Positions 5,628-10,113 of a DNA stretch of 33,124 nucleotides are shown here, one piece after another. The DNA is from an uncultured Elusimicrobiales bacterium (lineage in GTDB: Bacteria; Elusimicrobiota; Elusimicrobia; Elusimicrobiales; Elusimicrobiaceae): assembly GCA_944324695.1 (NCBI GenBank), contig CALUXH010000037.1:1-33124 (forward strand), read 5' to 3'. The notes under the pieces were generated by a model. That model was given only the letters and a program-made list of their open reading frames with translations. It did not search any database and was not told the DNA's origin. Position numbers and translations under genes: made by a program. Position 1 is the first letter of the stretch; each line of letters starts with the position of its first letter.

Positions 5628-5975
5628 ATGCTACTAAAAATCATCCGCAAATTCAGCTCCGCCCACCGCCTGCCCCATTACGACGGGGAATGCCACAACC
5701 TGCACGGACACACCTGGAAGGTGGTGTTTTTGCTGGAAGGAGAAATCAAACAAGACGGCATGGTGGCGGATTTTAAACGGCTAAAACCCCTGCTGGACGC
5801 ACAGCTGCCGGACCATTGTTATTTAAACGATTTGCTGGAAAACCCAACGGCGGAAAATTTGGCCCCGTATCTGTTTGACAAAACATCCGCCGCGCTCAAA
5901 CCGCTGGGGCTGAAAATCCGCACGCTGGAACTGTGGGAGAACGAAAATGCCGCGGCCGTTGTTGAAGGTAAATGA
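5628..5975 (+). CDS. queD: 6-carboxy-5,6,7,8-tetrahydropterin synthase
   Basis: Converts 7,8-dihydroneopterin triphosphate to 6-carboxytetrahydropterin, the second step of queuosine/preQ0 synthesis. 115 aa, typical of small QueD. Zinc ligands H13, H26 and H28 (SAHRL, LHGH) and the catalytic Cys C22 (GECHNLHGH) are all present, as is the C-terminal substrate-binding Glu in LELWEN. AGAGG overlapping the end of the preceding gene is the ribosome binding site. It overlaps queE by 29 bp. Comparison with the second PTPS-family protein at 8126-8476, which has no Cys, supports a division of labour. Confidence 0.96.
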   Translation: MLLKIIRKFSSAHRLPHYDGECHNLHGHTWKVVFLLEGEIKQDGMVADFKRLKPLLDAQLPDHCYLNDLLENPTAENLAPYLFDKTSAALKPLGLKIRTLELWENENAAAVVEGK

Positions 5976-6540
5976 AATTTTTTACTCCCTGCAAGGCGAA
6001 GGGCCGCACACCGGCATGGCGGCGGTGTTTCTGCGCCTGGCCGGATGCAGCATGAACTGCCCTTTTTGCGACACTAAATACGCCGCCGCGCAAGGCCGCG
6101 AAATGACGGACGGAGACATCATTTCCGCCCTGGAGCAGTACCCCTGCCGCAACGTGATTATCACGGGAGGGGAGCCCACGGAGCAGGACTTTGCGCCGCT
6201 GGCCCGTGAACTAAAAAAACGCGGCTGGACCGTGCACATGGAAAGCAACGGCGCACAGGACGCAGACGTAAGCGACATTGATTTTTTGGTGGTGTCTCCC
6301 AAAAAGCACGTCCATGAAAACATGCTTAAAAAAGCCCACGCCATTAAAATAGTGGTCGGACAGGACACGGATTTCACCGAAATAAAAAAATATTTCCCGT
6401 ATGCAAACGCCCGCACCGCCGTTTGCCTGCAGCCGGAAAGCAACAAACAGGAGAACATAGACCTATGCGTAAAACTCGTCAAACAACATCCCTTTCTAAG
6501 ACTCAGCCTGCAAACGCACAAACTGGCAAACATAAGATAA
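5947..6540 (+). CDS. queE: 7-carboxy-7-deazaguanine synthase (radical SAM)
   Basis: Radical SAM enzyme that contracts 6-carboxytetrahydropterin to 7-carboxy-7-deazaguanine, directly after QueD. 197 aa. The N-terminus reads EIFYSLQGEGPHTG, typical of QueE, followed by the cluster motif CSMNCPFCD, which has the QueE/radical SAM CxxxCxxC spacing, and by the SAM-binding TGGEP (about residues 74-78). GGAG lies upstream inside queD. The 3' end overlaps the folE start by 76 bp. queC and queF are not in this window. Confidence 0.96.
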   Translation: MPRPLLKVNEIFYSLQGEGPHTGMAAVFLRLAGCSMNCPFCDTKYAAAQGREMTDGDIISALEQYPCRNVIITGGEPTEQDFAPLARELKKRGWTVHMESNGAQDADVSDIDFLVVSPKKHVHENMLKKAHAIKIVVGQDTDFTEIKKYFPYANARTAVCLQPESNKQENIDLCVKLVKQHPFLRLSLQTHKLANIR

Positions 6541-7085
6541 GCCAGGAAAAAATATTGCAAAACCTGCGCGAAATTTTGGCCTATATCGGAGACGACCCCT
6601 CCCGCGAAGGCCTGCTGGAAACCCCGCACCGCATTCTGCGCAGCTGGGAGAAACTTTTCGGCGGATACAAAATGCGTCCGCAGGACGTGCTCAAAACGTT
6701 TACCGAAGGCTCCTGCGAAGAAATGGTAGTGCTCAAAGACATAGAATTTTATTCCACCTGCGAGCATCATTTGCAGCCGTTTTTCGGCTCCATCAGCATC
6801 GGCTATCTGCCCAAAGGGCGCGTGTTGGGCATATCCAAATTGGCGCGGCTGGTGGAGGTGTTTGCGCGGCGTTTGCAAATACAGGAAAAGTTGGTGGCGC
6901 AAATTGCCGACAGCCTAATGGAAACCCTGCAGCCCTACGGAGTGATGGTAGTCTGCAAGGCCAAGCATTTGTGCATCAGCTCACGCGGGATAGAAAAGCA
7001 CAACGCCGTTATGGTGACCAGCGCCATACGCGGCGCGTTTAAAAAGATGGAAGTAAGAAACGAGTTTTTGGATATGATAAAGTAG
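6465..7085 (+). CDS. folE: GTP cyclohydrolase I (FolE type)
   Basis: Opens the GTP ring to give 7,8-dihydroneopterin triphosphate, the shared precursor of folate and of queuosine, which explains its place between queE and folP. About 206 aa from the ATG at 6465, chosen because CAGGAG lies about 11 nt upstream; an earlier ATG (6423) in the same frame has a poorer context. Zinc and catalytic residues are visible in STCEHH and in KHLC near the C-terminus, with the PSREGLLETPHR block near residue 40 and SSRGIEKHNAVMVTSAIRG at the end. The first ~30 residues are a basic, poorly conserved extension that overlaps the queE end. Confidence 0.95.
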   Translation: MRKTRQTTSLSKTQPANAQTGKHKISQEKILQNLREILAYIGDDPSREGLLETPHRILRSWEKLFGGYKMRPQDVLKTFTEGSCEEMVVLKDIEFYSTCEHHLQPFFGSISIGYLPKGRVLGISKLARLVEVFARRLQIQEKLVAQIADSLMETLQPYGVMVVCKAKHLCISSRGIEKHNAVMVTSAIRGAFKKMEVRNEFLDMIK

Positions 7086-7088
7086 GAT

Positions 7089-7116
7089 GATACTTTTTTC
7101 ATTGCAAAAAAGTATC
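7089..7116. terminator. Hairpin directly after folE
   Basis: GATACTTTTTT (7089-7099) and AAAAAAGTATC (7106-7116) form a perfect 11-bp stem with a CATTGC loop, 3 nt after the folE stop. The stem is AT-rich and no separate T run follows, so it may be a weak terminator, a processing site or a 3' stabiliser within the fol operon. Confidence 0.45.
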
Positions 7117-7142
7117 CCAAAAAGCTAACCGCATACAGCGCG

Positions 7143-7224
7143 TAAAATTATATTTTTTGGGGATTTTATAAACTCGCGATTTGCTCAAACATATAAAATC
7201 CTTCTTCCAAAAAATATAATTTTA
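7143..7224. repeat. Long AT-rich imperfect inverted repeat in the folE-folP gap
   Basis: The arm 7143-7170 (TAAAATTATATTTTTTGG then GGATTTTATA) is matched in reverse complement by 7192-7224, with a 5-nt insertion (AAGAA on the complement). The arms are about 28 bp with a loop of about 21 nt. It lies between two genes of one pathway and is not followed by a T run. Confidence 0.6.
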
Positions 7225-7279
7225 CCAACGCACTGAAATGCGGCGGGGAAAAACAGAAGACATATAATTTTACAAACGC
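7214..7279. repeat. Direct repeat of an ATATAATTTTAC motif
   Basis: ATATAATTTTACCAACGC (7214-7231) recurs with one change at 7262-7279, 48 nt apart. A third copy lies inverted at 7141-7152 (GTAAAATTATAT). The motif contains TATAAT, so the copies could be promoter elements or binding sites for a regulator. Confidence 0.5.
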
Positions 7280-7334
7280 TCCTATTTTCGCTGAAAAATA
7301 CAAAGACATAATGCACGGCAAATATATAGATATT

Positions 7335-8129
7335 ATGACCAAACAAATCATGGGCATCGTTAATGCGACGCCGGACTCTTTTTACGACGGGGACCCGCAA
7401 AACAATTTAGACAAGCTGCTGGCCAAATGCCAAAGTCATTTGGAAGACGGGGCCGACATTTTGGACATCGGCGGCGAATCCACCCGCCCCGGCGCAACCC
7501 CCATATCCGCGCAGGAAGAACTGGCCCGCACGCTGGAACTGATTAAACAGGCGCGCAAACGCTGGCCGCAGGCGGTCATTTCCCAGGACACCTTTAAAAT
7601 TCCCGTCGCGCTGGAAGGCCTGAAGGCCGGCGTAAACCTCATCAATGACGTCAGCGGCACGCCTGATGAAGAAATGTTCAAACTGGTCAAAGATTTCGGC
7701 GCGCAAATCGTCATCACGCACAGCCGCGGCAACCCGCAAACCATGCAGACGCTGACGCAATACACGGATTTAATTGGAGAAATAAAAGACTTTCTGGCTC
7801 TTAAAATCGCACGTGCGCAGGCCTGCGGGCTGAAAAAAGAGCAAATTATTATTGACCCGGGCTTCGGCTTTGCCAAAACGCGGGAGCAAAATTACAAACT
7901 TTTGGCGCACGCCAAAGAATTTGCTACATTGGGGGTAAGGCTGCTTATAGGCCTGTCTCATAAAAAATTTTTAAGCCAGCCCTCAGAAAAGCCGCCCAAA
8001 CGCAAAACCCAGACGCTGTGCGCCAATTTCGCCGCGCTGGAAGCGGGAGCTGACATTCTGCGCGTGCACGACGTGCGGGAAACAAAAAAAGCAGTCAATT
8101 TCTTTTTGGAACTGGAGGAAAACGCATGA
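7335..8129 (+). CDS. folP: Dihydropteroate synthase
   Basis: Joins 6-hydroxymethyl-dihydropterin pyrophosphate to p-aminobenzoate; the sulfonamide target. About 264 aa from the ATG at 7335; an in-frame ATG at 7311 would add eight residues. Family blocks are clear: MGIVNATPDSFYDGD at the N-terminus, DIGGESTRPGA (about residues 47-57), QDTFK, NDVSGT, ITHSRG, and DPGFGFAKT. The start was hard to fix because no ribosome binding site precedes either ATG; TATATA (7323-7328) 6 nt before 7335 would allow a leaderless start. The 3' end overlaps the next gene by 4 bp (ATGA). Confidence 0.95.
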   Translation: MTKQIMGIVNATPDSFYDGDPQNNLDKLLAKCQSHLEDGADILDIGGESTRPGATPISAQEELARTLELIKQARKRWPQAVISQDTFKIPVALEGLKAGVNLINDVSGTPDEEMFKLVKDFGAQIVITHSRGNPQTMQTLTQYTDLIGEIKDFLALKIARAQACGLKKEQIIIDPGFGFAKTREQNYKLLAHAKEFATLGVRLLIGLSHKKFLSQPSEKPPKRKTQTLCANFAALEAGADILRVHDVRETKKAVNFFLELEENA

Positions 8130-8476
8130 GTAAAGTATTTTTAACGCAGGCTGGTTCGTTTAAAGCCATGCACAGCCACGACGGCACACTGGCAGAACCT
8201 TTGCACGAACATCTCTTCCGCTATGAAGCCACCTTTTACGGAGACATCAACGAAGAACGCTTTTTGGTGGACTTCCGCCAGATAAGCGGTATGTTTAAAA
8301 ATGAACTGGAAAAAATGCTCAACGGCTCCGACCTGACCACCTTCCTTCCGTTCCCGACGGCGGAATCCCTGGCCATTTGGCTTTATGACCGCATCAAGGC
8401 CAAAATGCCCAAACTTTACAGCGTCAAAGTGGCCGAAGCCGAAGACCGCTGGGTGGAATACCGGGGAGAAGAATAA
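8126..8476 (+). CDS. PTPS-family protein, probable PTPS-III substituting for FolB
   Basis: A 116-aa 6-pyruvoyltetrahydropterin synthase paralogue lying between folP and folK, overlapping both (ATGA and TAATG). The zinc ligands align with QueD: H16 (KAMHSHDG), H27 and H29 (LHEH). The protein contains no cysteine at all, so it lacks the QueD/PTPS nucleophile. A Glu (E24, in AEPLHEH) sits close to that position. Established knowledge: PTPS-III enzymes, with Glu in place of Cys, cleave dihydroneopterin triphosphate directly to 6-hydroxymethyl-dihydropterin and replace FolB in Plasmodium and some bacteria. Context (no folB, inside a fol operon) supports this. The alternative is a second QueD-like enzyme. 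Confidence 0.8.
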   Translation: MSKVFLTQAGSFKAMHSHDGTLAEPLHEHLFRYEATFYGDINEERFLVDFRQISGMFKNELEKMLNGSDLTTFLPFPTAESLAIWLYDRIKAKMPKLYSVKVAEAEDRWVEYRGEE

Positions 8477-8967
8477 TGCCTTTAGCCGTACTGGGACTGG
8501 GCAGCAATCAGGCCGGCCCCCAAGAACAGCTGGACCGCGCCGTGGAAGCCTTAGCCTCTTTGGGCCAAATCAAAGAAGTGGCCCCTTATATCCTGTCCAA
8601 ACCCGAAGGCTATGACGCCCAACCGGACTTTGTAAATACGGTGGCGCTCCTGTCCACGCCGTACCGGCCGGCGGATCTTTTGCGCAAGCTCAAAGAACTG
8701 GAAAAAAAGCTGGGCCGCGTTCCCACGTTTAAAGACGGGCCGCGCGTCATAGACCTGGATATTTTATTTTACGACGACCAGGTAATCTTTGACACGGACG
8801 CCATGCTTTTTGTCCCCCATCCGCGGCTGCATGAGCGGGAATTTGTCTTAAAACCTTTAAGCTATCTGCTGCCTGATTTTGTGCACCCCAAGCTGGGCAA
8901 AAGCGTTACAGACCTGTACCGAGAACTAATGCGCAATAAAGGTGTGCCAACCTGTAAAATTTTGTAG
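8476..8967 (+). CDS. folK: 6-hydroxymethyl-7,8-dihydropterin pyrophosphokinase
   Basis: Transfers pyrophosphate from ATP to 6-hydroxymethyl-dihydropterin, giving the FolP substrate. 163 aa, usual length. The GLGSN start (residues 7-11), FVNTVALL (about 54-61), ELEKKLGR, and the signature GPRVIDLDILFYDD with its catalytic Asp pair are present, followed by PHPRLHEREFVLKPL. Its ATG overlaps the stop of the PTPS-like gene by one base. It is the last recognisable fol gene of the operon. No fused FolB or FolP domain is attached. Confidence 0.96.
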   Translation: MPLAVLGLGSNQAGPQEQLDRAVEALASLGQIKEVAPYILSKPEGYDAQPDFVNTVALLSTPYRPADLLRKLKELEKKLGRVPTFKDGPRVIDLDILFYDDQVIFDTDAMLFVPHPRLHEREFVLKPLSYLLPDFVHPKLGKSVTDLYRELMRNKGVPTCKIL

Positions 8968-9003: not shown

Positions 9004-9432
9004 ATGAAAAAACTGGTTTTATGTTGTGCGGGCGCTTTGCTTTTGACCGCCTGCGCCACGGGACCCAAACAGCCCGGCCGCGTGGGGCAAATGTATTTTA
9101 CCACCATTGCTTTTGACGTAAACGGGGACGAAATCGCCACCGCTTCGTATAAACAAATTGACGAAGCCGTCAAAGTATATATGAAAGATCCGTCCGTCAA
9201 AGTGGAAGTGCGTGGATATACCGATTCCAGCGGCAACGCCCAAAGCAATTTGCGCCTGTCGCAAAAACGCGCCGACCGCGTGGCAAAAGCGCTGCAAATC
9301 CGCGGCGTGGACAGAAACAATATTACGGCCAAAGGCTATGGCTCTGAAAAACCCATTGTATCCAACAATACGCCCGAAGGCCGCCAGCAAAACCGCCGCG
9401 TGGAAATAGAATTCCCGTATCCGGACAAATAA
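9004..9432 (+). CDS. OmpA-domain (Pal-like) lipoprotein
   Basis: A 142-aa outer-membrane lipoprotein. The signal (MKKLVLCCAGALLLTAC) ends in the lipobox LTAC with Cys17 as lipidation site. Residues about 30-140 form an OmpA/Pal/MotB peptidoglycan-binding domain: FDVNGDEI, VRGYTDSSGNAQSNLRLSQKRADRV and NRRVEIEF. It should anchor the outer membrane to peptidoglycan. GGAG lies 10 nt upstream. The next gene is a paralogue with the same plan. The domain is shorter than full Pal proteins and there are no tol genes here, so I do not call it pal. Confidence 0.92.
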   Translation: MKKLVLCCAGALLLTACATGPKQPGRVGQMYFTTIAFDVNGDEIATASYKQIDEAVKVYMKDPSVKVEVRGYTDSSGNAQSNLRLSQKRADRVAKALQIRGVDRNNITAKGYGSEKPIVSNNTPEGRQQNRRVEIEFPYPDK

Positions 9433-9495
9433 TTTGACGTTTGCGCCCGAGGCAATATGCAGCGGGCGCGTTTTGCAAGCAAACAAGGAGAAGTC

Positions 9496-10113
9496 ATGAA
9501 GAAATTAGCTTTGTTGTGCGCCGCCGCTTTATTTTTGACGGCTTGTCACTGTGAAAGAAGAACCACCGGCACCCCTTGCCGCAAGGGTGTTTGCCAGGCC
9601 GAGCTGCAAAGCCAGCGCGAAGCCGAAGCCGCGCGCAGAGCCGCCGAAGCGCGCCGCCGCGCCGAGGCCGAACGCCGCGCCGCCATGCGCCGTGCCGCGG
9701 AAGAAAGAGCCGCCGCACAGGAACGCCATTATGCGGAAATCGGCCGCGCCAAACGCCGCGGAAATGTTATTACCGTGGAATATGAAAAACCCATTCAGTT
9801 CGGTCATAACAGCGACCAGATAGATCCTTCTTCTTTTAAAGAGCTGGACCGCACCGCCCGTCTGCTTAAAAGACATCCGGAAAATAAAATTACGATCAAA
9901 GGCTATACCGATTCTCTGGGAGACCCGGCTTACAACGTCGATCTTTCCCAGCGGCGCGCCAAATCCGTGGCGGACGCTTTGATTGAACGCGGCGTACCCG
10001 CTGAAAACGTCAGCTATGCCGGTTACGGCGCAGCCAACCCGGTGGCCACCAATGACACGCTGCTCGGTCGCCGTGCCAACCGCCGCGTGGAACTGGACAT
10101 CAGCGTACAGTAA
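9496..10113 (+). CDS. OmpA-domain lipoprotein with Ala/Arg/Glu coiled-coil linker
   Basis: A 205-aa lipoprotein starting at 9496, where AAGGAG precedes the ATG; an earlier in-frame ATG (9457) would mask the signal. The lipobox LTAC ends at C17, with a second Cys at 19. Residues about 35-85 are an almost pure A/R/E/Q stretch (AEAARRAAEARRRAEAERR) predicted to form a long helix or coiled coil. Residues about 95-205 are the OmpA/Pal domain (GYTDSLGDPAYNVDLSQRRA, NRRVELDI). The helix could span the periplasm between the membrane anchor and peptidoglycan. It lies 63 nt after its shorter paralogue and is followed by a strong terminator. Confidence 0.92.
   Translation: MKKLALLCAAALFLTACHCERRTTGTPCRKGVCQAELQSQREAEAARRAAEARRRAEAERRAAMRRAAEERAAAQERHYAEIGRAKRRGNVITVEYEKPIQFGHNSDQIDPSSFKELDRTARLLKRHPENKITIKGYTDSLGDPAYNVDLSQRRAKSVADALIERGVPAENVSYAGYGAANPVATNDTLLGRRANRRVELDISVQ

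Follow-up and report, generated by a model that had tools for sequence, protein, structure and literature searches.

The stretch of DNA analysed here, referred to as the window, is 33,124 nucleotides long and forms one contig of an Elusimicrobiaceae genome of 1.41 Mb that is 83% complete. It carries an operon with the gene order queD-queE-folE-folP-PTPS-folK (positions 5628-8967, Table 1). Gene calls and profile matches bore out the order folE, folP, PTPS-like, folK given in a preliminary description of this DNA, and a search with PF02152 likewise found no folB in the window. The overlapping stops and starts mentioned in that description are present between folP and the PTPS gene (ATGA) and between the PTPS gene and folK (TAATG), and queD/queE and queE/folE overlap as well, but folE and folP lie about 225-250 nt apart; an in-frame ATG is also present upstream of the folP start, at 7311. 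The spacer between folE and folP has a terminator-like hairpin and, further along, a perfect 19-nt inverted repeat, and a second full copy of this element was not found in the host genome. In many members of the genus folE and folP abut or overlap, unlike in the window. In one genome (G010) two open frames were seen for folE (L072:5949-6569), which may reflect an error in the MAG or a gene that is broken. On the 3′ side of folK, two adjacent OmpA-like lipoprotein genes were recognised by eye.

Table 1. Genes and elements in and next to the operon, with the evidence for each assignment
Feature	Position	Strand	Evidence
queD (PTPS-I)	5628..5975	+	PF01242 8.9e-28; TIGR03367 3.9e-23, under cut-off
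queE	5947..6540	+	TIGR04322 2.3e-36, under its cut-off
folE, GTP cyclohydrolase I, dihydroneopterin triphosphate source	6465..7085	+	PF01227 8.6e-70; TIGR00063 over cut-off
folE-folP spacer	7086..7334	+	hairpin and inverted repeat
Terminator-like hairpin in spacer	7089-7116		z -6.35 computed for spacer structure
Perfect 19-nt inverted repeat in spacer	7142-7160 / 7207-7225		
folP, dihydropteroate synthase	7335..8129	+	PF00809 6.4e-74; TIGR01496 over cut-off
PTPS-III-like gene, 116 aa	8126..8476	+	PF01242 4e-15; family alignment; AlphaFold; Foldseek
folK (HPPK)	8476..8967	+	PF01288 3.4e-32
Two adjacent OmpA-like lipoprotein genes	9004-10113		read by eye

The queD product is of the usual type, with Cys22 in the motif CHNLHGH, as had been described before, and with the Asp-His pair kept (PDHCYLND). 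The second PTPS-like protein of the operon was matched only by PF01242, with a score of 56 bits against a cut-off of 22.4 that makes it a member of the PTPS superfamily, and gave no match to the FolB profile PF02152. It contains H16, E24, H27 and H29, in agreement with the preliminary description, as well as E104 as a putative pterin anchor and H18, which is specific to its family; the Asp-His pair is absent. The earlier statement that it has no Cys anywhere is correct for the window copy but not for the family, as a Cys occurs at other positions in 27 of the 41 orthologues, frequently at position 9; none has one in the catalytic place.

An alignment of the 41 family sequences showed that H16, H18, E24, H27, H29, N42, E44, D49, F50, R51, L70, T78, E80 and E104 are invariant, and H16, E24, H27, H29 and E104 are unchanged down to about 33% identity. 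The three His residues H16, H27 and H29, putative metal ligands, correspond to the metal-binding residues characteristic of PTPS-III. The middle residue of the HxH motif varies (Glu in 13 sequences, Thr in 7, Asp in 6, others, Gly in 1), and so do the positions of the Asp-His pair, which is kept in QueD, in the hybrids described below and in the Plasmodium PTPS. H18 is restricted to this Elusimicrobiaceae family, whose first hairpin is shorter. An AlphaFold model of the window protein had a mean pLDDT of 95, and Foldseek returned TM scores of about 0.85-0.89 to QueD and of about 0.78-0.80 to the Plasmodium PTPS.

Published signatures distinguish QueD (CxxxHGH), PTPS-III (ExxHGH) and hybrids able to serve both pathways (CExxHGH) (PMC5041015). 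The Plasmodium PTPS has the motif FRETLHGH, and its Glu-38 cannot be exchanged for Cys, Gln or Leu without loss of the 6-hydroxymethyl product (PMC2229834). In the motif EPLHEH of the window protein, E24 is located three residues ahead of the second metal His, in the ExxH register. Because this register equals that of Plasmodium Glu-38, E24 is not shifted relative to PTPS-III; the offset of one residue noted before exists relative to the QueD Cys, and as the mark of a new subtype the shifted Glu was rejected. The full ExxHGH signature was not found, the window protein having ExxHEH, and with no Cys and no HGH it carries neither the CxxxHGH signature of QueD nor the CxxxxxHGH signature of PTPS-II. 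It also lacks the Asp-His pair as it occurs in Plasmodium (LDHHF in the rows 1Y13 and 2A0S). The proposal of an atypical subtype was therefore right in that HEH for HGH is a real departure and wrong with respect to the Glu, whose position is canonical; the absence of the Asp-His pair, which is a greater deviation, had been overlooked.

The genome-wide search for folB proposed in the preliminary description gave no PF02152 match in the 83%-complete host genome or in 60 relatives, and the positive controls were detected; of these 61 genomes, 42 reach a completeness of 90% or more. For the phylum, 248 evenly sampled Elusimicrobiota genomes were surveyed. Genomes were typed with PTPS, FolB, FolK and family profiles and with a DNA pattern for GKCExxHGH, those missed by the pattern were read by sequence, and the genome sets behind the tallies were compiled by hand from the search tables. 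In this sample folB was absent from every Elusimicrobiaceae genome and was found in 33 genomes, all from other families of the class, with three matches under the curated cut-off. A PTPS was present in 230 of the 248 genomes, and 173 of these contained folK and no folB. An ExxH-type PTPS occurred in 172 of the 173 compared with 0 of the 33 folB-containing genomes, counts that take in related genomes without phylogenetic correction; as related genomes are not independent, Fisher tests on this co-occurrence were not taken as probabilities. The 172 genomes comprise 59 with the window-protein family, 112 with a CE or DE type, and G243, whose PTPS has TTEPLHGH (L193). The lone exception, G118 (L192), has folK, no FolB match and no ExxH-type PTPS, its PTPS motif being CRHLHGH. 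In the sister family f2, a Glu follows the Cys in 19 of 19 genomes with folK versus 3 of 14 without it. In many f2 genomes (e.g., L082 and L084) folK has apparently been lost, and the Glu after the QueD Cys has usually been lost too.

In a phylogenetic tree the PTPS-III-like proteins formed one clade (100/99) present in three genera, and the QueDs from the genomes bearing the PTPS-III-like gene formed another (97/89). The family stood apart from QueD and also from the canonical Cys-less PTPS-III rows, in a tree in which the Plasmodium row is a long branch and the bacterial PTPS-III rows come from within Elusimicrobiota; of the two placements discussed for the window protein, clustering with QueD was not observed, and neither was grouping with PTPS-III. 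Sister to the QueDs of the bearers (99/96) was a hybrid QueD with CEALHGH from G165 (genus g14), which has the same operon without the PTPS-III-like gene. In the 41 bearers checked, the residue following the QueD Cys was H, R, Y, A, Q, S or N and in no case E. The tree and these residues fit the replacement of a presumed dual enzyme by two specialists. Families f4 and f11 contain a separate clade of Cys-less PTPS-III with DEPLHGH or TTEPLHGH (L132, L137, L175, L193). The DEPLHGH copies of f4 (L132, L137, L175) carry Tyr at the position of the catalytic His, which suggests that this His may serve Cys chemistry only. Three genomes (G070, G136 and G148) encode an extra, longer PTPS-like protein with GEA[QS]YLHGH (L197, L198 and L196, respectively).

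The six-gene order was found in most members of the genus and in the related genus g12. In G090, whose genome is a single contig, the PTPS gene is still next to folK, and the two are some 150 kb away from queD-queE-folE. Five genus members (L047, L048, L050, L051, L052) have a PTPS-FolK fusion, a single open frame containing both Pfam domains. The family profile scored above 100 bits in just three genera of Elusimicrobiaceae (g1, g12 and g13), the next match reaching 54 bits, and a contig search returned close relatives only, the nearest named ones being Candidatus Avelusimicrobium and other Elusimicrobiales MAGs. No relatives were found in the viral contigs searched, all plasmid matches were below 60% identity and those listed were QueD or unannotated, and PHROGs gave at most a weak QueD-like match.

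Taken together, the computed gene order, residues, fold, family, folB absence, FolK fusion and phylum co-occurrence are best explained if positions 8126-8476 encode an enzyme of a divergent PTPS-III-like kind, specific to Elusimicrobiaceae, that takes over from the absent dihydroneopterin aldolase, a reading to which we assign a probability of about 0.87. Loss of the Asp-His pair, the near-universal replacement of the HxH Gly, the failure to group with canonical PTPS-III and the exception G118 count against it. The PTPS-III-type folate route with a FolE product shared between two enzymes, as originally proposed, is strongly supported by the absence of folB, the operon, the FolK fusion and the co-occurrence. 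For the PTPS-III-like protein itself we infer the substrate, the product, the metal and the catalytic role of E24. FolE would make 7,8-dihydroneopterin triphosphate, part of which QueD would divert to queuosine by means of Cys22, a branch that is plausible because QueC is also encoded in the host genome. In the PTPS-III-like protein, E104 would bind the pterin, H16, H27 and H29 would hold the metal, and E24 would act where QueD uses its Cys, so that the side chain is cleaved to give 6-hydroxymethyl-7,8-dihydropterin, which FolK and FolP would then use for folate.

Judged by its residues, the window protein is not a member of PTPS-III in the sense of the strict published signature, yet we predict with high confidence that it works like one. 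As the Gly of HGH is missing and the Asp-His pair is absent, we refer to it as a PTPS-III-like variant. With PTPS-III (COG0720; P. falciparum 1Y13; bacterial enzymes replacing FolB) it has in common the PTPS fold, the three metal His residues, the Glu three residues before the second of them, the lack of a catalytic Cys, and a place among folate genes in genomes that lack folB. It differs in that its family has the HxH Gly in 1 of 41 sequences, has lost the Asp-His pair, has an invariant His18 and a shorter first hairpin, and forms its own clade. The hybrids of the CExxHGH type (G165, G171, folK-containing f2 members and other classes of the phylum) have the same Glu register and the same correlation with folK and folB absence, but they keep the Cys and the Asp-His pair and are thought to serve both pathways, whereas the window genome splits the jobs between two proteins. 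QueD (E. coli 4NTK/4NTM) is similar in fold (TM about 0.87-0.89), metal His residues and the pterin-anchoring Glu, yet the catalytic Cys, the Asp-His pair and the HGH that it has are all missing from the PTPS-III-like protein. FolB occupies the same place in the pathway without sequence homology and with a weak structural match (TM about 0.5). The Asp-His pair, part of the ancestral triad, is apparently dispensable for the PTPS-III-like enzyme. Tentatively, and with the odds somewhat against it, the family might even constitute a separate folate PTPS subtype that cleaves the pterin side chain with just the metal and one Glu, has shed the Asp-His pair, perhaps with His18 taking over, and arose as a dual CExxHGH enzyme gave way to two specialists.

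A sub-variant of this explanation, compatible with its main claim, is that the enzyme acts mainly on dihydroneopterin or its monophosphate, replacing FolB step for step while the phosphatase step is kept. Archaeal PTPS-III members may use a monophosphate substrate (PMC5041015), and loss of the Asp-His pair implies a pocket different from that of the Plasmodium PTPS; as the phosphorylation state cannot be read from a sequence, we consider this version possible and rather unlikely. Much less probable is a non-catalytic partner, such as a scaffold for FolK or a regulator, with another aldolase making the folate precursor: the Glu and the metal site are all that is left of the catalytic set, and some species have the FolK fusion, but the metal His residues and E24 do not vary in any of the 41 sequences, and the distribution of ExxH in the phylum follows the absence of folB. 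A second QueD or a BH4-type PTPS without a folate role would agree with the operon shared with queD and queE and with Pfam and NCBIfam seeing only the PTPS superfamily. This assignment is slightly less probable still, because the protein lacks the catalytic Cys and the Asp-His pair, scored 29.5 bits on the QueD model against a cut-off of 89.25, belongs to a clade separate from QueD, and is encoded by a gene that tracks and fuses with folK. Decay of a queD duplicate, which the lost QueD catalytic residues might suggest, can practically be dismissed in view of the intact operon in three genera, the invariant residues and a median dN/dS of about 0.08 (15 genus copies, many saturated pairs left out), which indicates purifying selection and argues against a pseudogene.

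The PTPS-III bypass as such is already known, and the novelty of the PTPS-III-like enzyme lies in the variant, in which most of the ancestral catalytic residues have been lost and the one Glu known to permit the bypass has been kept. Current HMM libraries see a generic PTPS only, under the QueD and subfamily cut-offs, so that the assignment would also be a gain for annotation. The phylum provides an unusually clean natural experiment, the PTPS Glu being present with folK in the absence of folB and absent where folB is found, and the divergent family poses the question of which ancestral residues the Glu-type reaction needs. For the organism and its relatives, the PTPS-III-like enzyme would close an apparent gap in the folate synthesis of a gut-bacterial family.
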